Source: Rubrobacter sp. (GTDB lineage Bacteria; Actinomycetota; Rubrobacteria; Rubrobacterales; Rubrobacteraceae). From it: a stretch of DNA of 16,966 bases. A program made the translations under genes and the position numbers. The number at the start of each line of letters is the position of its first letter. Position 1 is the stretch's first letter. The notes below the pieces were generated by a model, which saw only the letters and a program-made list of their open reading frames with translations, did no database searches and had not been told where the DNA came from. Below are positions 2,801-15,029 of the stretch, piece after piece. The stretch is from NCBI GenBank assembly GCA_013815485.1, contig JACDGB010000003.1, positions 1-16,966 on the forward strand, in the 5' to 3' direction.

Positions 2801-3349
2801 CTAGTGAGCCAGTCCGTCGGCGGGCTCGCCGTAGAACTGCTCGACGTAGCGGCGCTGGACGGCGTTGAGGCCCCGCGAGTACCATACCATGACCACGTAC
2901 CGCGGCTCCTTGGGGGTGGACTTCGGGTACATGCCGCACTCCATCGGGAGGCGGTTGCCCTTCCTCGCGTTGCACTTGGTGCAGGCGGTCACCACGTTGT
3001 CCCAGGTATTGCCGCCGCCACGCGAGATGGGCTTGACGTGATCTCGGGTCAGGCACTCGCGGCGGTTCAGGTCGTCGCGGTGCTTGCCACAATACTGGCA
3101 CTTGTAGTTGTCGCGGGCGAAGAGGATCGTGTTCGTAACGTGGCGCCTCAGGCGACGGGGGATCTCGACGAACTTGATGAGGCGTATCACCAGCGGATAG
3201 GGATACTCGGCCTTCTCCGAGCGGAACCGGCGTTCCAGGTTGGCCTCCACGATCTCGGCCTTTTCGGAGACAACGAGGACGATAGCCCTCTTGGCGGGAA
3301 CCAGGGCCACAGGCTCGTAGCTGGCGTTCAGGGTCAAGCAGCTTGCCAC
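2801..3349 (-). CDS. HNH endonuclease
   Basis: A 182-aa HNH nuclease of a standalone type common in actinobacteria and cyanobacteria. The N-terminal part (LTLNASYEPVALV, about 5-17, then RAIVLVVSEKAEIVE) is typical of that subfamily. The zinc-binding pairs are C84-x2-C87 and C123-x2-C126. The HNH core is DHVKP (103-107), GGGNTWDN (111-118) and CNARKGNR. The GTG start at 3349 is the first possible codon after an in-frame stop and lies only about 5 nt beyond the predicted transcription start, with no clear Shine-Dalgarno, so it may be read leaderless. Cellular substrate is unknown. No phage or intein genes surround it. Confidence 0.92.
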   Translation of the reverse strand: MASCLTLNASYEPVALVPAKRAIVLVVSEKAEIVEANLERRFRSEKAEYPYPLVIRLIKFVEIPRRLRRHVTNTILFARDNYKCQYCGKHRDDLNRRECLTRDHVKPISRGGGNTWDNVVTACTKCNARKGNRLPMECGMYPKSTPKEPRYVVMVWYSRGLNAVQRRYVEQFYGEPADGLAH

Positions 3350-4503: not shown

Positions 4504-5501
4504 GCCGGGTTCACCCCAAGTCCCGGTCTGTCGGGGAGCAGGATGCGACCGTTCTCGTAGCCGAGTCCCTCGAACGGGTCGTCGGCGAGGAGCATCGCGC
4601 CGTCGAGGTCAACGAAGTCAATCAGGCCGGAGACGTGCGCGGCTGCGGCTATGCCGAGGGAAGTCTCGACCATGCAGCCGAGCATCACCTTCATGTCGTG
4701 GGCGCGGGCGGTCTGGATCATGGCTATCGCGCCCCGGATCCCACCGCACTTGGCGAGCTTGACGTTCACCCCGCTCACGCATCCGGCCAGCTTCGGCACG
4801 TCACGGGCGGTGATCGCGCTCTCGTCAGCGATGAGGGGCACGGACCCGGCTGCCTCCGTGACCGCTTTCAGGGCATCGGAGCCTTCGGTGGCGGGAACTG
4901 GCTGTTCGATCATGGCGACGCCCATCTCCACAAGCTCCCTGACGATATCGGGCGCGTCATCCGTGGAGAAAGCCTCGTTGGCATCCACCCAGATGGCGGC
5001 GTCTGACTCCTGCGCAACGGCCCGGACGGTCTCGATATCCTCCCTGCCGCCCACCTTCATCTTGAAGATTGGGAACCCCGAACGAGATAGTTCTCTGGCC
5101 GCTTCGAGGGTCGTCTGCCGGTCGGCGATGCCCAAAGTGTAGGCGGTCGTGGGCGTGGGGCGACCGAGGCCGAGGAGCCGGTAGACCGGGACGCCGAGCC
5201 TCTTGGCGGTGAGGTCGTGGAGGGCGGCGTCGAGTGCGGCGAGGGAGGCTGGCGGGAGGTGGGCGTTTTCTCGCAGCGTGCCTTCGATATTCCAGGGGTC
5301 TTTTATCTCCGCAGTCTCCAGGGCGGAGCGGGCGTCTTCGGCATTCTGGCCGTAGTAGTTCGTTGGTTCTGCTTCGCCCCGTCCCGTGAGGTTTCCATCC
5401 TCCAGTTCGAAGACCACGCGCTCGAAGGTATCGGCGGAGGAGCGGGCGATGGCGAAGGTGCGTTTGGTATGTACCGTGACGATCTCTGCTCGAATATCCA
5501 T
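4500..5501 (-). CDS. dgcA: Dipeptide epimerase-like enolase-superfamily enzyme, probable N-acetyl-D-glutamate racemase DgcA
   Basis: A 333-aa enolase-superfamily protein of the muconate-lactonizing subgroup. The barrel residues are all visible: KMK (147-149), metal ligands in WVDANEAF (Asp173), IEQP (Glu199) and ADES (Asp226), and the second catalytic lysine in KLAKCGG (Lys251). GCMVETS and the final DLDG motif match dipeptide epimerases such as L-Ala-D/L-Glu epimerase. The overlap with a DUF1611 gene points to N-acetyl-glutamate epimerisation in D-glutamate use or peptidoglycan recycling, but a plain Ala-Glu epimerase role remains possible. The ATG at 5501 has no Shine-Dalgarno and lies 9 nt after a TAAAAT box, so the mRNA may be nearly leaderless. 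Confidence 0.88.
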   Translation of the reverse strand: MDIRAEIVTVHTKRTFAIARSSADTFERVVFELEDGNLTGRGEAEPTNYYGQNAEDARSALETAEIKDPWNIEGTLRENAHLPPASLAALDAALHDLTAKRLGVPVYRLLGLGRPTPTTAYTLGIADRQTTLEAARELSRSGFPIFKMKVGGREDIETVRAVAQESDAAIWVDANEAFSTDDAPDIVRELVEMGVAMIEQPVPATEGSDALKAVTEAAGSVPLIADESAITARDVPKLAGCVSGVNVKLAKCGGIRGAIAMIQTARAHDMKVMLGCMVETSLGIAAAAHVSGLIDFVDLDGAMLLADDPFEGLGYENGRILLPDRPGLGVNPA

Positions 5502-5510
5502 ATACGGGGC

Positions 5511-5516
5511 ATTTTA
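5511..5516 (-). promoter_or_regulatory. Possible -10 box for dgcA-dgcN
   Basis: Minus-strand TAAAAT, 5 of 6 to the -10 consensus, 9 nt before the dgcA ATG. No recognisable -35 hexamer is present. It lies in the 128-nt divergent spacer shared with the response-regulator gene. Confidence 0.35.
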
Positions 5517-5594
5517 GCGAGCGATGACGACAGATGCGGGCCAGGCTATTTCGGATTGTTCGGTTCGGGGCGTGAAGCGTGATGACGCAAGGTT

Positions 5595-5622
5595 TATACT
5601 GCGGGCATCCTTAAGAACGGAG
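5595..5622 (+). promoter_or_regulatory. -10 box and ribosome binding site for the signalling genes
   Basis: TATACT at 5595-5600 matches the -10 consensus at 5 of 6 positions; the -35 position (GTGAAG) is weak. GGAG at 5619-5622 is 7 nt before TTG 5630 and decides that start. Three TTCGG copies (5550, 5559, 5564) just upstream could be an activator site, but this is speculative. Confidence 0.4.
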
Positions 5623-5629
5623 TGGTGCT

Positions 5630-6361
5630 TTGGCGCGGACCGTGGCGGAGATCCTGATAGTCGAAGATGACCGGGTGATACTGGAGGCTCTTTCATACAA
5701 CCTTTCGCGGGAGGGTTTCGGTGTTAGCCGGGCGACCAGCGGGGCCGAGGGGCTCGGCATCGCCCGCCGTCTCCGGCCTGATCTCATTCTGCTCGACATC
5801 ATGTTGCCGGAGGAATCTGGCATCGAGGTTTGCCAGAAGATCCGGGAGCGCGACGAGGAGGTGGTGATAGTGATGATCACCGCTAAAGACGCCGAGGAGG
5901 ACAAGGTCCTGGGCTTCGAGGTGGGGGCGGACGACTACGTGACCAAGCCGTTCGGGATGAAGGAATTGGTCGCGCGCATCAACGCGAACCTGAAGCGCAG
6001 CGAGGTCGGCTACCGAGGCCGGGTGCTTGAGGCCGGAGACCTTCAGATAGACACGAAGAACTTCCAGGCGACGGTGAATGGCGAGCCTCTGTCTCTGCGT
6101 TTGAAGGAGTTCGAGCTTCTGGTTGCGCTGGCGAGCGCGCCGGGTGAATTGAAGAGCCGGGAGGAGTTGGCGAAAGACGTGTGGGGGCACGCCGGGGTCG
6201 GTTCCTCGCGCACCATAGACGTGCATGTGCGCCGCATTCGGGCGGCCCTCGCGGAGATCTCCTCCTACGAGTTCATCCACACTGCGAGGGGCCTCGGGTA
6301 TCGCTTCGAGGCCGTGCCCAATGCACGGGTCGGGACCGCGAACGAGACGCCGGAGCAGTGA
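5630..6361 (+). CDS. OmpR/PhoB-family response regulator
   Basis: A 243-aa two-domain regulator. The receiver domain has the acidic pair E12-D13-D14, phospho-acceptor Asp56 (LLDIMLP), Thr84 (MITAKD) and Lys106 (YVTKPF), so it should be phosphorylatable. A winged-helix DNA-binding domain spans about 132-232, with LRLKEFELL, VWGHAGVGSSRTIDVHVRR and the closing ARGLGYRFE, all typical of OmpR/PhoB regulators. TTG 5630 is preceded by GGAG at 7 nt; GTG 5642 is a weaker alternative. A histidine kinase gene starts 4 nt after its stop, so that kinase is the natural partner. Target genes cannot be told from the window. Confidence 0.95.
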   Translation: MARTVAEILIVEDDRVILEALSYNLSREGFGVSRATSGAEGLGIARRLRPDLILLDIMLPEESGIEVCQKIRERDEEVVIVMITAKDAEEDKVLGFEVGADDYVTKPFGMKELVARINANLKRSEVGYRGRVLEAGDLQIDTKNFQATVNGEPLSLRLKEFELLVALASAPGELKSREELAKDVWGHAGVGSSRTIDVHVRRIRAALAEISSYEFIHTARGLGYRFEAVPNARVGTANETPEQ

Positions 6362-6365
6362 GCCC

Positions 6366-7115
6366 GTGTTGGAAGGCGGCAAGAAGGATCTGGATTACGT
6401 AGGACCGGAGGAACTGCGGCGGGTCAACAAGATCCGGCGCGACTTCGTCGCCAACGTCTCCCACGAGCTGAAGACCCCGGCGACCTCGCTCCGTCTTTTA
6501 GCCGAGAGCGTGGTCGAGACTATTGAGGAGGATCCGGATCAAGCACGCTACTTCGCCGAGCAACTGAAGAACGAGACCGAACGCCTGGGCCAACTCATAT
6601 CCGACCTCCTTGACCTCGCGCGCCTGGAGAGCGAGGAGAAGGTCCCGACCCCCAACCCCGTGGATGTCCGACACGTCTTGATGGTCGTGCTCGGACGGAT
6701 GCGCCGCGTCGCCCGCAGCAAGGACATCTCCCTGCAATGGAAACGCTTCGGCAGGAGCGCGCAGTACGAGATCCCCGGCGATGAGACTCAGTTGACCTCC
6801 ATGTTCACGAACCTGATAGATAACGCCATAAAGTACACGCCGCCGGGCGGGCGGGTCGAGGTGACCGGCGGCTCGGACGACCTCGGCGTGAGCGTCCGCA
6901 TCTCGGACACCGGCATCGGCATCCCGGAAGGCAAGTTGTCCCGCATCTTCGAGCGGTTCTACCGGGTGGACAAGGCTCGCTCCAAAGAGACGGGCGGCAC
7001 CGGCCTCGGGCTCTCCATAGTGCGCCACGTCGCCGAGAACCACGGCGGCAGGGTCGCCGTCGAGAGCGCGCCCGGAGAGGGCACGACCTTCACCGTCTAC
7101 CTGCCGCGAGGTTGA
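6366..7115 (+). CDS. Short PhoR-like histidine kinase without a sensor domain
   Basis: A 249-aa kinase from GTG 6366. HisKA holds FVANVSHELKTP with His33. HATPase_c shows the N box NLIDNAIKYTPPGG, G1 ISDTGIGIP, F box IFERFYRVD and G2 GGTGLGLSIV, so catalysis should be intact. Only about 25 residues precede the dimerisation helix. There is no membrane segment and no PAS, HAMP or GAF domain, although relatives usually have them. The frame stays open back to 6225, but that stretch overlaps the response-regulator gene and is low-complexity Arg/Ser/Pro, so it is a shadow. GGAG lies 10 nt before the GTG. It is probably cytoplasmic and must take its signal from a partner protein. Confidence 0.9.
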   Translation: MLEGGKKDLDYVGPEELRRVNKIRRDFVANVSHELKTPATSLRLLAESVVETIEEDPDQARYFAEQLKNETERLGQLISDLLDLARLESEEKVPTPNPVDVRHVLMVVLGRMRRVARSKDISLQWKRFGRSAQYEIPGDETQLTSMFTNLIDNAIKYTPPGGRVEVTGGSDDLGVSVRISDTGIGIPEGKLSRIFERFYRVDKARSKETGGTGLGLSIVRHVAENHGGRVAVESAPGEGTTFTVYLPRG

Positions 7116-7131
7116 GAGATGGGTGAGATAG

Positions 7132-7145
7132 GTCCGCGACCGGAC
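7132..7145 (+). other. Small hairpin after the short kinase
   Basis: GTCCG-CGAC-CGGAC forms a perfect 5-bp stem with a 4-nt loop, 16 nt after the kinase stop. There is no U-tract, so termination is doubtful and read-through into the hybrid-kinase gene is possible. I see no convincing promoter in the rest of 7116-7271. AGGAA at 7261-7265 is the ribosome binding site for the next gene. Confidence 0.25.
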
Positions 7146-7271
7146 GCCGCGCACGAGGACAGGAGCAGAGGCTAAATCCGACGCTAAAGCCGGACCCGCG
7201 AACGGACGAAAATAGCATATGGATCACGGCTTCGGCCGGTACTGTACACGCGGGAGTACGAGGAAGCAGAA

Positions 7272-10200
7272 ATGACGATAGCACGCAAACTGTGGTTGGG
7301 CTTCGGGGTCATGATCCTGCTTTTCCTGCTCGCGGGCCTGGTCGTCCTCCTCAGTGAGCGTTTCGCGGGCATCTTTATAACGATCGCCTTCCTGCTCTTT
7401 GCCGGTCTGATCGCCGTCATCCTGGCGATGACGCTCGCCAACCGGAGACTCATCGGCTCCGTCCGCAGGCTAGAGGAGGGCGCGCGCAGGATCGGCCGGG
7501 GCGAGATGGATTACAGGATCGAACCGGACGATGGCGGCAAATTTGGCGACGTGGCGCTTGCCTTCAACGAGATGCTGGACCGGCGCCGCGATTCCAACAC
7601 GGAACTCAGAGAAGCGGAACACAGGTACCGCAAGCTGGTGGAGAACATCCCGGCGGTCGTCTACATCCAGTCCGCCGACGCCAAGCTCCTGACCTATATC
7701 AGCCCGCAGATCGAGCAGTTAACCGGCTACACCCCGGAGGAGCGGTTGGCGAACCGGAACGGGAACTGGATCGCCCTGATCCACCCGGACGACAGAGATC
7801 AGGTCCGGGCCGAGGACGAACGCACCGACGAGACCGGCGAGCCGTTCCGCATGGAGTACCGTCAGCAGGCGAAGGACGGCCGGTACGCGTGGATTCGGGA
7901 AGAGTCCGTGCTGGTGCGCGACGAGGCCGGCGAGCCTCTCTACTGGCAGGGTTTCCTGTTCGACATAACAGAGCGGAGGCGGGTCGAGGATGCCCTGAGG
8001 GAAAGCGAGGAGAGGTACAGAACGCTCGTCGAGCATACTCCCGTCATCACCTATACCGAAACCGTCGCCGATTCAAGCGCCACCTCCTACGTCATCCCGC
8101 AGGTCGAACGGATGCTAGGTTACACAGCAGAAGAGCTGGACGAGACGGACCCGTTCTGGATCGCCATGCACCCCGAAGACCGGGAGGGGGTCTTAGCGGA
8201 GGATGAGCGCACCAACGAGACCGGCGAGCCATTCGAGGTCGAGTACCGTGTGCTCCACAAGGATGGCCGGGTAGTGTGGGTGCGGGACGAAGCGATCCTG
8301 GTTTCGACGGACGAAGATGGCACGCAACACTGGCAGGGCGTGATCTACGACATCACCGAACGCAAAGAGGCCGAGGAGGAACTGCAATACAGAGAAGAGT
8401 GGTTCCGCTCCTTGGTCCAGAACTCCTCAGACGTGATCGTGGTGATCGAAGCCGACGGGACCATCAAGTACCAGAGCCCCGCGGCAAAGATGGTGCTTGG
8501 CCTCGACACCGAAGATCTTGTCGGTGCCAGCCTCTTCGAGGCGGTCGAGTTTCAGCCGCAAGACCTAGCGAACATGCAGTTTGCCCTGGCGGACCTGCTG
8601 TCGAGACCCGGCGAGAGCATCTCGCTCGAAGCGAGTGTCATGCATGGGGACGGCTCCTGGAGGGTCCTCGAAGTCGTCGCGACCAACCTGCTGGAAGACC
8701 CCGCCGTAAACGGCATAGTAGGCAACTACAGGGACGTGACGAGGCGCAACGAGGCGCAGGAGAAGCTCCGCGAGAACGAGGAGCGTTACCGGCTGGTCGC
8801 CAGGGCCACCAACGAGACGATCTGGGACAGCGACCTCCTGACCGACCGGCAGGTGTGGAACGGGGCGGTCGAGACGATGTTCGGCTACCCCGCGCGCCAG
8901 GAGACGGACAGTGCGTGGTGGGAGGATCACGTACACCCGGATGATAGGGAGCGGGTGGTATCGAGAATAGACGCCGTCCTGGAGACCGGCGGGGAGATGT
9001 GGTCTGAGGAGTACCGTTTCCGGCGCGCCGACGGCACGTACGCGACCGTCGTGGACCGGGCCTACGTGATGCGTGACGAGAACGGCGAGCCGGTGCGCCT
9101 GGTCGGCTCGATGATGGACGTGACCGAACGCAAGAGGGCCGAAGAGGAGATCCGGCGTCTCAACGAAGACCTGGAGGAGCGCGTGCGGGAACGCACTGTC
9201 AGGCTCCGGGACGCGCTCACCGGGCTGCGCGAAAGCGAGGAACGCTACAGCCTGGTGGTCGAGGGCTCCAACGACGGCATCTACGACTGGGACATTCGCA
9301 CCGGCGGTATCTTCTGGAACGACCGTCTCTTCGAGATCGTCAGCCTTACGCGCCAGGAGCTCACCCCGACCCTGGGCAACTTCCTGGGTCTCGTACACTC
9401 GGAGGACCGGGAGACGATGTCGGAGGCTATCACCGCCCACCTGGAAGATGACAGAACATTCGAGGTGGAGTTCCGCTTTCAACCGCCCTCGGGGGAGGAA
9501 CGCACCTGCATCACCCGCGGGAAAGCCCAGCGCGACGAAGACGGGAACCCCTTCCGCATGGCCGGCACGGTGACCGACATTACCGAGCGCAAGCGGGTCG
9601 AGGAGGTCCTGCGTCTCAGGGATCGGGCCATCGCCGCGAGCTCCAGCGGCCTCGTCATCACCGACCCCAACCTGCCGGACAACCCTCTGATCTACGTGAA
9701 CCCCGCCTTCGAGGAGATGACGGGGTTCACGGCCGAAGAAGTTCTCGGGAGCAACTGCCGCTTCTTGCAGGGCGAGGAAGGCGACCGGGAGGCGATCTCT
9801 GGGCTGCGCGACGCCATCAGGGAGGGACGGGACCACACGGTGGTGCTGCGCAACTACAAAAAAGACGGTGCCCTCTTCTGGAACGAGCTCTCCGTCTCCC
9901 CGGTGCGCAACGAGCGGGGCGAGTTGACGCACTTCGTGGGGGTGCAGAACGACATCACCTTGCGCAAGCAGGCGGAGGAGGAGATCCGGAGCTTCAACGA
10001 CACCCTGGAGAGGCGCGTCGAAGAGCGCACAACCCAGCTCGAGGAGGCCACGAAGGCCGCCGACACGGCCAACCGGGCGAAATCCGAGTTCCTGGCGAAC
10101 ATGAGCCACGAGATAAGGACGCCCATGAACGGTGTCATCGGCATGACCGAGCTCCTGATGGACACCGGGCTCACCAGGGAGCAGAGCGACTATGCCAGGA

Positions 10201-12059
10201 CCTTGCGCAAGTCCGGTGAGAGCCTGCTTTTGATCATCAACGACATCCTCGACATCTCCAAGATAGAGGCGGGGTCTGTACGCCTGGAGAAGATCAGCTT
10301 CGACCTCCGCACGGAGTTGGAGGAGACTCTCTACGCGCTCGCCGAACGGGCGCAGGATAAGGGCCTCGAGCTCACCGGTTTCGTGGAACCAGGGGTGCCG
10401 ACGGCGCTGAAGGGCGACTCGTTCCGGCTGCGCCAGGTACTTACGAACCTCATCGGCAACGCCGTGAAGTTCACGGAGGAGGGCGAGGTTGGACTCCGCG
10501 TCGAGCTAGAAGAGGAGGCGAAAGACGCTGTGCTCGTGCGCTTCGAGATCACCGACACCGGCATCGGCATGACCGGGGAGCAGCAGAGAAAGCTCTTCGA
10601 GGCCTTCACCCAGGCCGACACCTCAACCACCCGCCGATACGGCGGCACGGGGCTCGGGCTCACCATCTCCAAACAGTTGGTGGAGCTGATGGGCGGTGAG
10701 GTCTGGGTGGAGAGCGCGCCGGGCGAGGGCAGCACCTTCTCGTTCACGGCCAACCTCGAGAAGCAGCCGGTGGCGGCCCAAACCGCGCAGAATCACCGCC
10801 CGGACTTGAGGGGCCTGCGCGTGCTCGTGGTGGACGACAACGACACCAACCGCCGGATCCTCGACAAGCAAGTCACCTCCTGGGGGATGCGCGACGGGCT
10901 GACGGGAGATGCCTTCGAGGCCCTGCGCATGCTGAAAGAAGCCAGAAGAAGCGGTATTCCCTACGACGTGGCGATCCTGGACATGCACATGCCGGGCATG
11001 GACGGCATCGAACTGGCGAAGAGGATAAAGGAAGCCCCTGAGCTATCCCAGATCAGGCTGGTGCTACTGACCTCGATGGGACGGCGCAGCGATGATCCCA
11101 GGGCAGAGAGCGCCGGGCTCGACGCATACCTAACCAAACCCGTGCGCCAGTCCGAACTGTACGACTGCCTGCTCACGGTGATGGGCTCGCCCGTGGGCCA
11201 CCCTGAACCGTCCACGAGACGCGCGGACCCGCTCGTCGCCCGCCGAGCCAGGCGGGTGGTTTCGCGCCGCCCGGAGAACAGGCCCCACATCCTGCTCGCC
11301 GAGGACAACCCCGTGAACCAGCAGGTCGCCGTCAAGATGCTCGAAAACCTCGGCTACGATGTGGCCGTGGCCGCCAATGGCCGCGAAGCGCTCGACTCTC
11401 TGGCTCATACCACCTACGCGGCGGTCTTGATGGACGTGCAAATGCCCGAGATGGACGGCTACGAGGCTACCGCGGAGATCCGCCGCCGCGAGGAGGGATC
11501 TCCGCAACGCACCCCGATAATAGCGATGACGGCGAACGCCCTGGAAGGAGACCGAGAGAAGGCGCTGAGGGCCGGCATGGACGACTATATCGCCAAGCCC
11601 GTGAAGCCCGCGAAGCTGAACGCCGTCCTGGAACGCTGGGCGTCCGCGAGAGAGGGGGAACCGGAAGCAGCCGGCGAGTTCCCGGAAGGCGTAGGGAACG
11701 GCCACGCTCCTCCTGAGAACCCCATGGACCCCGTGGTCTTGGACAGCCTGCGCGAGCTAGGAGGCGACGACATTCTTGCCGAGTTGGCCAAGCTATTCCT
11801 CGAAGACGCCGAACCGCGTCTCGCTGCCCTCGGGGATGCCGTGAAAGCGGGCGACGCGCGCACCGTGGAGCAGGTCGCCCACGTCCTCAAGGGCAGCTCC
11901 GGCAACATGGGCGCCCGCCGGATGAGCGGCCTGGCCGCCGAACTCCAGGACATCGGGGCCTCGGGGGACCTCTCGAAGGCCCCGGAAAGCCTGAGAAGCC
12001 TAGAGGCGGAGTTCGCGAGGGTCCGTCCGGCGTTGGCCGCGCTCGCCGGGAATGGTTAA
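7272..12059 (+). CDS. LOV-containing multi-PAS hybrid histidine kinase with two receivers and HPt
   Basis: A 1595-aa membrane-anchored hybrid kinase. Domain order: membrane segments at about 8-28 and 33-56, HAMP (about 57-110), PAS domains at about 117-234, 246-363, 375-491, 503-620 and 655-773, then a LOV domain (about 783-898). After it come HisKA ([11 protein letters not shown], His946), HATPase_c ([26 protein letters not shown]), receiver 1 (Asp1237), receiver 2 (Asp1388) and HPt (His1537 in [13 protein letters not shown]). The LOV core is GSNCRFLQG with the flavin-reactive Cys829; Asn861, Asn871 and Gln892 occupy the flavin-contact positions. This predicts a blue-light sensor feeding an internal His-Asp-His relay. 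Two nearly identical coiled-coil linkers lie at about 622-650 and 902-930. The two receivers and HPt resemble BarA/TorS-type relays. AGGAA is 6 nt before the ATG. Domain calls are firm; the light response is inferred. Confidence 0.94.
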
Positions 12060-12068
12060 CATAGCGCC

Positions 12069-13052
12069 ATGAGAGTATTAGTCGCCGAGGATGATGCCGT
12101 ATCGCGAATGATCCTGCGCCGCGCCATCGAGAAGCTCGGCCACGAATGTCAGGCGGCCGAAGACGGCATGGAGGCGTGGAAGATGTACCGTGAGACTCCT
12201 GGCGTGGACGTCATCATAAGCGATTGGATGATGCCCAGAATGGACGGTCTCGAGCTCTGCAACAAGGTGCGGAGCCTCATGGGGAGCCGGGAAGGCTACA
12301 CGTTCTTCATCTTTCTGACGGCCCTGGGAGACAAGGAGCACGCTTTCGAGGGTCTGCGGGCCGGGGCCGATGACTACCTCTCGAAGCCCCTGGACCGCGA
12401 CGAGCTGCGGGCACGGCTGATCGCCGCCACCCGCGTGACCTCCTTGCAAAGACAGCTCACGCAGCAGAAAGAGGAACTAGAGAGGCTGAACCGCGAGCTC
12501 TTCCGACAGGCGCGCACTGACCCCCTCACGCGCCTCGGCAACCGGTTGAGGCTTCGAGAGGACCTGGAGACGCTGCGGGCGAGGGTGAACCGGTACGGGC
12601 ACACCTACTCCGTGGTCCTGTGCGACATAGACTCCTTCAAGCTCTACAACGACCGGTACGGTCACCTGGCCGGAGACGAGATCCTCCAAAGGGTGGCGAA
12701 CGCCCTCATGGAGACCTTACGCGCCGGAGACTCGTCCTACCGGTACGGCGGCGAGGAGCTTCTGGCCGTGCTGGCGGAGCAGACCTCCAAGAGCGCGTCG
12801 GTGGCGGCCGAGAAGCTACGGGCCGCAGTGGAGGAGATGAGCATACCGCATGAAGGCCATCCGATGCCGGGCGTAGTCACCGTAAGCGCCGGTGTCGCGA
12901 CGCTCATCCCCGGCGAGGACAAGAGCACCGACACCCTGATCAAGGAGGCCGATGAGGCTCTTTACAGGGCGAAGGAACTGGGCAAGAACAGGGTCGTGTG
13001 TCACGAGGAGACGGTCGGAAACCGGGACTCGAAAAGCTCCTCAGCTTCCTAA
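12069..13052 (+). CDS. REC-GGDEF response regulator (diguanylate cyclase)
   Basis: A 327-aa protein joining a receiver domain (phospho-acceptor Asp52 in SDWMMPRMDG; FLTAL and YLSKPL at the switch positions) to a GGDEF domain through a coiled coil (LQRQLTQQKEELERLNREL). The cyclase domain has the metal site DIDSF (Asp186), NDRYGHLAGDE, and active-site GGEEL at 227-231; Leu replaces the usual final Phe. RAGD at 218-221 lies five residues before it, the exact spacing of the RxxD c-di-GMP inhibition site. It should make c-di-GMP from GTP under phosphorylation control, like PleD or WspR. It starts 9 nt after the hybrid-kinase stop with no good ribosome binding site, suggesting coupled translation and a shared pathway. 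Confidence 0.94.
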   Translation: MRVLVAEDDAVSRMILRRAIEKLGHECQAAEDGMEAWKMYRETPGVDVIISDWMMPRMDGLELCNKVRSLMGSREGYTFFIFLTALGDKEHAFEGLRAGADDYLSKPLDRDELRARLIAATRVTSLQRQLTQQKEELERLNRELFRQARTDPLTRLGNRLRLREDLETLRARVNRYGHTYSVVLCDIDSFKLYNDRYGHLAGDEILQRVANALMETLRAGDSSYRYGGEELLAVLAEQTSKSASVAAEKLRAAVEEMSIPHEGHPMPGVVTVSAGVATLIPGEDKSTDTLIKEADEALYRAKELGKNRVVCHEETVGNRDSKSSSAS

Positions 13053-13307
13053 AAATCGTCCCCTGCTCGAGCGCCAGGGCACCGTATGAACGCGGGCGGC
13101 GAGCTCGTCCGAGGAGAACGGTTTCACCACATAGTCATCCACCCCGATCGTGAGCCCCTCGATGAGGTCCCGTTCTCTCTGACGAGCGGTTACATGATGA
13201 ACGGCAACATGGAGAGTTGGCTCCGACCTGTTCCAGATCTCCCGCACGAGCCGCCGGCCATCTATGCGGGGCATGTTGCTGCCGGTTATGAGTGAAGTAT
13301 TCATCAC
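13041..13307 (-). pseudogene. Decayed response-regulator receiver fragment
   Basis: An 88-codon minus-strand frame reads as the second half of a receiver domain: NMPRIDGRRLVREI, VTARQRERDLIEGL, then VDDYVVKPFSSDELAARV with the conserved Lys. The first half of the domain (acidic pair, first beta strands) is missing; an in-frame stop lies a short way upstream. At the aspartate position the sequence is ITGSNMP, where ITDxNMP would be expected, so the phospho-acceptor appears lost. No output domain follows. It overlaps the 3' end of the REC-GGDEF gene by 12 nt, tail to tail. Best read as a gene remnant, though a small stand-alone protein cannot be excluded. Confidence 0.6.
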
Positions 13308-13370
13308 CGGACGATGGCATTCGATAGGCTTTGTCTACGGATAGAGGCACGGGGAGTCCGGGTTCGACGC

Positions 13371-13396
13371 GTTTACGGCACGGCGCGCACGGGTAT
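13371..13396 (+). promoter_or_regulatory. Sigma-B/SigF-type stress promoter
   Basis: GTTTAC (13371-13376), a 14-nt spacer, then GGGTAT (13391-13396). This matches the general-stress sigma-B consensus GTTTAA-N12-14-GGGTAT at 5 of 6 and 6 of 6 positions. The predicted start near 13404 gives a leader of about 36 nt before the DUF2795 ATG. It lies in the 387-nt stretch between REC-GGDEF and DUF2795, which otherwise holds only the receiver remnant. Confidence 0.55.
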
Positions 13397-13439
13397 GGCG
13401 ACTCTGGGAAACGCAAGTGACAGTGGAAGGAGTGGAAAC

Positions 13440-13637
13440 ATGGATCTGGGTGGAACTCTAGGCGATCTGGGGCAGTCCTTGCAGGGCGTGAACTTCCCGG
13501 CCAGCAAGGAGGATGTCATCGCCAGCCTCCAGGAAAACAACGCGCCGCAAGAAGCGATAAATCAGGTCAAGAACGCCAGCACGGACACCTTCAACAGCGC
13601 CGACGAGGTCACGCAAACGGCACAGAGCAACCAGTAG
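13440..13637 (+). CDS. DUF2795 small protein
   Basis: A 65-aa protein. After an N-terminal DLGGTLGDLGQSLQG, residues 20-58 (NFPASKEDVIASLQENNAP, then EAINQVKN and TFNSADEV) match the DUF2795 pattern: a beta/alpha start with PASK, a central NNAP turn, and a closing SADEV. The frame is open further upstream, but GGAAGGAG at 13425-13432 sits 7 nt before ATG 13440 and fixes this start. The upstream extension is Arg-rich noise. A sigma-B-like promoter precedes it and a strong terminator follows, so it is a one-gene unit, probably stress-induced. DUF2795 has no known biochemical function. It is predicted soluble, with no signal peptide. Confidence 0.82.
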   Translation: MDLGGTLGDLGQSLQGVNFPASKEDVIASLQENNAPQEAINQVKNASTDTFNSADEVTQTAQSNQ

Positions 13638-14087: not shown

Positions 14088-15029
14088 TTACGCGGGACCA
14101 GAAAAATGGTCCCAGCCAGTGAGATCTTCCACGGGCTTTCTCCCACGCAAGAAGGTCGCGCCTCCGCGGATGACCTCGCCAACGACCGTGATAGATATAT
14201 TGGACTCTCTCGACAGGGCATCCAATGTCCGTTCCGGAGCGGCGAAGAGCAGCTCGTAGTCCTCGCCGCCGGTCGCCGCCAACGTCTCCGGGTCGTGGCC
14301 CAGAGATTCAGAGATCCGCCGCGTGTCGGGGGCAATGGGGAGATGGTCGAGGTCCACCCGGCATCCCACGCCGCTCATCTCGCAGACGCGCCTGACGTCC
14401 GAGGCGAGTCCGTCGGAGAGATCTATCGCCGCGTGTACGCTGAGACGCGCCGCCGCGAGCCCAACCTCGACCCGCGGCTCGGGGCGCAGATGCTTTCGGA
14501 CAAGACGCTCCGGGGCTCGCTCATCGCGCTGAAGGATTAGCAAACCCGCCGCCGAAGCACCGAGTTCCCCGGTCACGGCCAGCAGGTCTCCAGGCCGGGC
14601 ACCGGAACGCAGCATCGGCGGTTCCGGAAGCTCGCCGAGGATGGACACGTTCACGGTCAGAGCGCGGGCGCGAGTGGTGTCACCCCCGAGCTGATACACG
14701 CCGAACTCTTCGCAGGCTTCGGCAACGCCCTTCATGCACCGCAGCGCCGTCTCCGGGTCCGGGGTCCCGCCGGAGACGAGGACGAAGCGCGGCCTCCCCC
14801 CCATCGCCGCCACGTCCGAGACGTTGACCGCGACGGCCTTGTAGCCAACGTCTTCAGGGGCGGCCCAGTCTTCGAAATGATGGCCGGAGACGAGCATATC
14901 CGCAGCGGCGACCCACGAAGTCCCGCCCAGCCGCACCACGGCGCAGTCGTCGCCGATAGGCGCGATCACCTCCGGCGGCGGCGCCGGGAGGGATTTCGAG
15001 AGGTTCCGGATCACACCGAACTCGTCCAC
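14088..15029 (-). CDS. thiL: Thiamine-monophosphate kinase
   Basis: A 313-aa ThiL, which phosphorylates thiamine monophosphate to the active cofactor thiamine diphosphate using ATP. Motifs in order: IGDDCAVV (25-32), ADMLVSGHHF, VNVSDVAAMGG (69-79), QLGGDTTRA (about 113-121), AIDLSDGLASD and GGEDYELLFA. Length is typical and nothing looks broken. The GTG at 15029 directly follows an out-of-frame TAA and lies 8 nt after the stop of the small membrane-protein gene. The ribosome binding site is poor (GAGGGAG is too far upstream), so translational coupling is likely. It is the last biosynthetic gene of the thiamine cluster. Confidence 0.96.
   Translation of the reverse strand: MDEFGVIRNLSKSLPAPPPEVIAPIGDDCAVVRLGGTSWVAAADMLVSGHHFEDWAAPEDVGYKAVAVNVSDVAAMGGRPRFVLVSGGTPDPETALRCMKGVAEACEEFGVYQLGGDTTRARALTVNVSILGELPEPPMLRSGARPGDLLAVTGELGASAAGLLILQRDERAPERLVRKHLRPEPRVEVGLAAARLSVHAAIDLSDGLASDVRRVCEMSGVGCRVDLDHLPIAPDTRRISESLGHDPETLAATGGEDYELLFAAPERTLDALSRESNISITVVGEVIRGGATFLRGRKPVEDLTGWDHFSGPA
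14094..14113. repeat. Perfect inverted repeat inside the thiL 3' end
   Basis: GGGACCA and TGGTCCC form a 7-bp perfect stem around a 6-nt A-rich loop, inside the last codons of thiL and ending 3 nt from its stop. No U-tract follows on the minus strand. It may be chance or a weak 3' structure. Confidence 0.3.

Follow-up and report, generated by a model that had tools for sequence, protein, structure and literature searches.

The described systems closest to the protein considered here are LOV histidine kinases and chimeras such as Brucella LOV-HK (Protein Data Bank codes 6ph4 and 6pps), entry 4gcz, and SB2F1 (8a3u), all of which join a LOV domain through a helical linker to a kinase core. They are compact proteins whose entries show a single sensor domain or a pair and name no receiver/Hpt relay. 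For the LOV domain of Meiothermus ruber Mrub_1259 (9vf7 and 9vf8, "histidine kinase"), the entry holds the LOV part alone, and the LOV entries 6rhg and 6y7r ("multi-sensor hybrid histidine kinase"), which we take to be Chloroflexus CagFbFP, resemble our protein by molecule name. Kinases of the BarA/TorS/ArcB type share the kinase-receiver-Hpt core but differ in their sensor part. The accessible text of PMC6798134 describes YHF, a kinase derived from YF1 in which a LOV and a heme-PAS domain are placed in series and integrated through a coiled coil; it was engineered with two sensors. Here, we describe a multi-PAS LOV hybrid histidine kinase of 1595 amino acids (aa), whose serial array of six sensors is natural, encoded at 7272..12059 on the forward strand of a 16,966-nucleotide (nt) window. 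The window is an entire contig (C144) of the draft genome of a Rubrobacteraceae soil bacterium (511 contigs, 75% complete). Taken alone, this very large sensor protein adds one further member to the known LOV hybrid kinases; more weight lies with what its orthologs and relatives show. In what follows, G numbers denote compared genomes (G000 being that of the window), g1, g2, and g9 genera, P numbers listed homologs, L numbers fetched loci, and C numbers contigs of the window's own genome; the Rubrobacteraceae set comprises 39 genomes (G000 to G035 and G060 to G062).

The LOV domain (residues 781 to 904; 9612..9983) carries the sequence GSNCRFLQG, an instance of the GxNCRFLQ motif that surrounds the LOV adduct cysteine. 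Cys829 (codon at 9756..9758) is followed by Asn861 (+32), Asn871 (+42), and Gln892 (+63), exactly where the initial annotation had placed them, and Arg830, Gln833, and Arg846 are also found. In LOV domains, the two asparagines and the glutamine contact the flavin, and an arginine binds its phosphate; the residues predicted for flavin binding and adduct formation thus appear complete, as that annotation had claimed. Cys829 is one of three cysteines in the entire protein (746, 829, and 1299). Sequence searches matched LOV proteins of known structure with E values down to 6.1e-39, and the match to phy3 (1g28; 1.3e-31) pairs equal lengths (query 32 to 132 with chain 3 to 103), in line with the residue spacing of plant phy3 LOV2 that had been proposed. 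A profile and structure comparison of this region had been suggested as a check. An AlphaFold2 model from a 62-row family alignment reached a pLDDT of 93.2 and a pTM of 0.82, and Foldseek recovered 556 PDB matches at E ≤ 0.001, of which all 50 listed are LOV-containing entries, with Mrub_1259 at the top. As judged from sequence, the agreement in residues and domain lies far beyond chance, and, together with the model, it indicates that the domain is very probably a blue-light sensor. PAS1 and PAS2 also align to the LOV profile, yet without the LOV residues, while PAS3 to PAS5 gave no match there. The YtvA family (NCBIfam NF052652) was considered and set aside: with 199.4 bits against a cutoff of 250, the protein is a LOV-domain relative and no YtvA.

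Five PAS domains precede the LOV domain, and a kinase core with two receivers and an Hpt domain follows it, an order on which the initial annotation, Pfam (HAMP, six PAS stretches, HisKA, HATPase_c, two Response_reg, and Hpt), and our own profile agree. PAS counts here and below come from a profile built from the window protein, which divergent PAS domains may escape. Two hydrophobic stretches (about residues 8 to 28 and 33 to 55; 7293..7436), identified by eye in the translation, would form two membrane helices with a very short loop and no extracytoplasmic sensor domain, a putative membrane anchor. The homolog P0005 likewise has no such domain by eye, and the G001 ortholog has CHASE3/4HB in this region. 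HAMP (residues 57 to 104; 7440..7583) is followed by PAS1 (7608..7988), PAS2 (7992..8375), PAS3 (8379..8759), and PAS4 (8763..9143), all with approximate boundaries. An 11-residue linker box (9117..9149) marks the junction of a sensor block that is absent relative to G001 and P0005, and PAS5 (9213..9602) leads into the LOV domain. A PDB search with PAS1 to PAS5 gave 26 matches, including FixL (2e-16 for residues 177 to 316), and no ligand was assigned. Beyond the LOV domain, a 52-residue linker from the DIT motif (residue 894) to the phospho-acceptor His946 (9951..10109) enters HisKA (10077..10274), followed by HATPase_c (10413..10757), receiver 1 (10821..11171, boundaries approximate), receiver 2 (11289..11630), and Hpt (11781..12026). 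The phosphorelay residues are complete (His946, Asp1237, Asp1388, and His1537 of HisKA, receiver 1, receiver 2, and Hpt, respectively), as in a hybrid kinase. Kinases of the BarA/TorS/ArcB type provide the best NCBIfam matches, below their cutoffs; the second receiver is a further difference from them.

The initial annotation had also regarded the protein as unusually large for a bacterial LOV kinase and light as one of several inputs integrated directly before the kinase core. The placement of a canonical LOV domain directly before HisKA is borne out by sequence, model, and conservation, and the architecture makes a role of light as one input among several plausible. Size carries little weight as an argument. 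Our homology search scored 7996 candidates and yielded 2594 proteins at E ≤ 1e-20. Among the 119 matches listed (excluding a near-copy of the window protein), 77 have the LOV residue pattern, of which 32 reach or exceed 1595 aa, with a maximum of 2718 aa; hence, the protein is not exceptional by size. The search covered a range of about 880 to 2790 aa and is therefore uninformative on how frequent short LOV kinases are.

We consider it fairly probable that this membrane-anchored hybrid kinase integrates multiple inputs, with an exchangeable LOV domain sensing blue light, with a relay through Hpt to a REC-GGDEF protein and cyclic di-GMP (c-di-GMP) and a sensor array that is rebuilt at linker boxes. 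Blue light would form the adduct between Cys829 and the flavin, which would twist the coiled coil and, jointly with signals from PAS1 to PAS5, shift the balance of kinase and phosphatase activity. Phosphate would next travel along the receivers and Hpt, reach the receiver domain of the neighboring REC-GGDEF protein, and alter c-di-GMP. Recombination at repeated DIT/TERKRAE linker boxes may cause the LOV domain to be gained, lost, or duplicated, leaving kinase core and locus unchanged.

The output side of this proposal can be read from the locus, in which the order phoB, phoR, kinase, and often REC-GGDEF is followed by thiL, NUDIX, and thiE on the opposite strand. In the window, the upstream anchors on the forward strand are a PhoB-like response regulator (5630..6361) and a PhoR-like histidine kinase (6225..7115, conserved from about 6348), and the downstream anchor is thiL (14088..15029, reverse strand). 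The PhoR-like anchor was matched in 30 of the 39 family genomes (own included), 20 of which have a multi-PAS hybrid kinase beside it, complete in many of them. Contig ends cut the locus kinases of G002, G007, G013, G017, and G034, frame breaks required those of G016, G023, and G024 to be read in pieces, and the G002 kinase, spread over two contigs (L139 and L120), was treated as one gene; among the ten genomes without one, G008 and G061 have their anchors near contig ends, where a kinase could lie beyond the assembled sequence. Directly downstream of the window kinase, after a gap of 9 nt, lies the REC-GGDEF response regulator (12069..13052, forward strand), which has GGEEL and an RxxD I-site-like motif. 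The 3' end of the kinase gene is covered at 16 loci, and at 11 of these (G000, G006, G010, G012, G014, G016, G018, G021, G024, G025, and G032), an intact REC-GGDEF open reading frame (ORF) comes next, with a 4-nt overlap in four (G006, G018, G021, and G032), so that a c-di-GMP output is probably common in the family, and the window's own genome has 15 EAL matches. The relay output is most likely to run through the adjacent REC-GGDEF protein and hence c-di-GMP.

Several observations weigh against this output in the window's own lineage: REC-GGDEF is in two frames in G001 (L119, 11608-12722), possibly through a sequencing error, and missing in G002 (L120, 4463-5107), both of genus g1 like the window and both with the preceding kinase retained; the window has GGEEL, where active diguanylate cyclases carry GG(D/E)EF and the ten other intact homologs have GGEEF with RxxD; and PilZ gave no match in the 75%-complete genome. 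Among the four LOV-bearing loci, REC-GGDEF is intact in G000 and G010 only. The split or missing genes and the GGEEL motif suggest that signaling through c-di-GMP may be in decay in this lineage, and whether genus g1 still has a working output of this type is doubtful. The alternative that these facts serve best is that the LOV domain does function in photosensing while the Hpt passes phosphate to another regulator, e.g., the upstream PhoB-like protein, with REC-GGDEF a relict in the genus. PhoB and PhoR homologs do lie upstream of every locus kinase with its 5' flank in view, and REC-GGDEF is also absent beside the retained kinases of G003, G015, and G023 (genus g2). However, PhoB has its own PhoR partner, the window gene keeps its close spacing together with RxxD and GGEE, and elsewhere in the family intact genes directly adjoin or overlap the kinase. 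We think this alternative rather improbable.

LOV domains turned up in nearly all family genomes covered. At a threshold of 1e-15, LOV matches came from 35 of the 36 family genomes searched first, the window's own among them, and from 1 of 24 genomes outside the family; three further family genomes were then searched, and G033 and G048 were searched again. LOV domains were fetched for most of these matches, and in the genomes richest in candidates, scoring went up to a fixed number per genome (72 in the 60-genome search and 14 in the phylum sample). Among the domains fetched, 37 of the 39 Rubrobacteraceae genomes have at least one LOV domain with the cysteine, both asparagines, and the glutamine. 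The G028 domain (L181, residues 20 to 141) has the cysteine and both asparagines with leucine replacing the active-site glutamine, and G033 (82% complete) gave no LOV domain with the four residues among those fetched. In a sample of 296 genomes of the phylum searched at 1e-22, 27 family genomes matched; of the 269 others, 5 did so too, judged by the match alone; the 20 nonmatching genomes listed are all from outside the family, and the other 244 were taken as such. Ten further family LOV proteins examined with Pfam end in SpoIIE (four), HisKA_3 kinases (four), or GerE (one) or are cut at the LOV domain (one). The accessible part of PMC7901476 remarks that Rubrobacteria metagenome-assembled genomes hold hardly any blue-light-sensing genes. 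The presence of LOV in 37 of 39 genomes disagrees with that remark, and we infer that the annotation behind it probably overlooked LOV domains. A literature search on Rubrobacter photoreceptors, blue light, and two-component systems, which covered titles and abstract openings and left most subscription papers outside, returned no work on the LOV proteins of the family.

In the window's own genome, no LOV domain other than the one described here was seen to have the full residues; weaker matches at C275 and C266 lie outside the residue-by-residue check, and a LOV-like domain on C351 (L167, residues 296 to 419) has proline for the cysteine. Such proline-bearing domains, with the first asparagine and the glutamine kept, also occur, in LOV-profile listings of which one went down to 55 bits, in L184, L191, L195, and L197, and in L184, L195, and L197, they precede a cysteine-bearing LOV domain. 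Both sister genomes, G001 and G002, have a second LOV kinase (LOV, PAS array, GAF, and HisKA_3; L130, 6332-10285, and L131, 8564-12487) about 5 to 6 kb past MoxR, and the window contig stops before that point. Two points favor reading the LOV domain mainly as a sensor of flavin redox state or of oxygen, or as a passive transmitter from PAS5 to the kinase: the flavin of LOV domains can be sensitive to redox state, and proline-bearing domains occur in the window's own genome and four other loci. Against it, the cysteine is kept in the locus LOV domains of G000, G001, G002, and both G010 copies, and the fetched loci yielded 113 LOV-profile domains, 65 of them with the cysteine, both asparagines, and the glutamine and the others mostly ordinary PAS domains; we regard such a role as very unlikely.

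In contrast to the conserved core, the sensor arrays of the locus kinases differ between genera, from 3 to 12 PAS/LOV domains in proteins of up to 2709 aa. LOV is present in 4 of the 20 locus kinases (G000, G001, and G002 of genus g1 and G010 of g9) and was not seen in 15; the remaining one, G013, is cut after two PAS domains. In G007, a PAS domain similar to PAS5 leads straight into the HisKA linker without LOV. The G010 kinase (L121, ORF 6196-11892) has two LOV domains (about residues 624 to 744 and 1021 to 1141) that share an exact 362-nt block covering most of the domain, likely a recent duplication or gene conversion, with an assembly error possible. Relative to G001, the window protein is missing a stretch of sensor modules (934 aa) bounded by two DIT/TERKRAE boxes, and relative to the environmental ortholog P0005, its nearest kinase core (support 100/99 in the kinase-core tree), it is missing 1115 aa at the repeated linker box. 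These 1115 aa and the 511-contig draft might suggest that a longer kinase (about 2700 aa) collapsed to 1595 aa during assembly through its repeated modules, but P0008, three substitutions away, has the same form and the same junction, and the only direct repeat in 7272-10110 (seed 14, length 20) is a 137-nt pair of 70% identity, which together speak against this and leave it highly improbable.

On the kinase-core tree, built without one G032 kinase (motif missing) and the kinases of G016, G024, G023, G013, and G007, LOV presence requires 6 changes by parsimony, at least 3 of them forced by well-supported branches. A single clade of the g1 and g9 kinase cores was rejected (approximately unbiased test, P = 0.0002), in a test made after an earlier tree had shown conflict. 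In the LOV tree (domains of at least 120 bits and at least 90 aa), the five LOV domains of the locus cluster together, with modest support (82/64). Taken together, these observations make the history of the LOV module seem partly separate from that of the kinase core. The case is tempered by the weakness of that grouping and by the fact that recombination at the linker boxes is read solely from end states. A plasmid relative was also considered and rejected: a plasmid search with 9579-12059 gave two records, with short matches covering 8% and 2% of the query.

The spacing between sensor and kinase bears on how modules could be exchanged in phase. Compared with the 52 residues from DIT to the phospho-acceptor histidine in the window kinase, 13 listed homologs with LOV directly before HisKA have 52 (6), 59 (2), 66 (3), 34 (1), and 41 (1), and 13 locus kinases have 52 (3), 59 (3), and 34 (7); distances for P0002, P0004, and P0007 were corrected by reading from 62 to 52, an upstream DLT having been mistaken for the motif. 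The long class (52, 59, and 66) and the short class (34 and 41) are each spaced by seven, as in heptad-related linkers. A heptad dependence of the YF1 linker, with light repression at 7n and light activation at 7n+1, is reported in the accessible text of PMC6798134. We tried and abandoned a transfer of this rule: 8a3u has 36 residues (counted in the alignment), and the difference of 16 fits neither the 7n nor the 7n+1 class, which leaves no basis for predicting whether light would raise or lower activity.

Elsewhere in the window, an HNH protein (2801-3349) is 100% identical over 178 to 181 aa to those of G001 and G002 (L130 and L131), where neighbors are 76 to 90% identical, and a small DUF2795 protein (13314-13637) lies between REC-GGDEF and thiL, with a similar one in the G002 flank. 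No RNA family was found in the window at the gathering threshold, and promoter- or terminator-like sites in 5400-13400 did not exceed those of shuffled sequence.

The Rubrobacteraceae are known for members that tolerate radiation and for members from desert soil. We see an even chance that they sense blue light family-wide and that the phoB-phoR/thiL locus is a sensor-swapping platform, at which PAS, GAF, and LOV modules would have been moved in phase at repeated linker boxes before one conserved kinase and c-di-GMP output. If so, related species would run the same relay with or without light input. Orthologs at this locus without LOV, with one, and with two offer natural comparisons for serial signal integration and for the plugging in of a photosensor, and the family-wide presence of LOV makes light sensing in Rubrobacteraceae directly testable.

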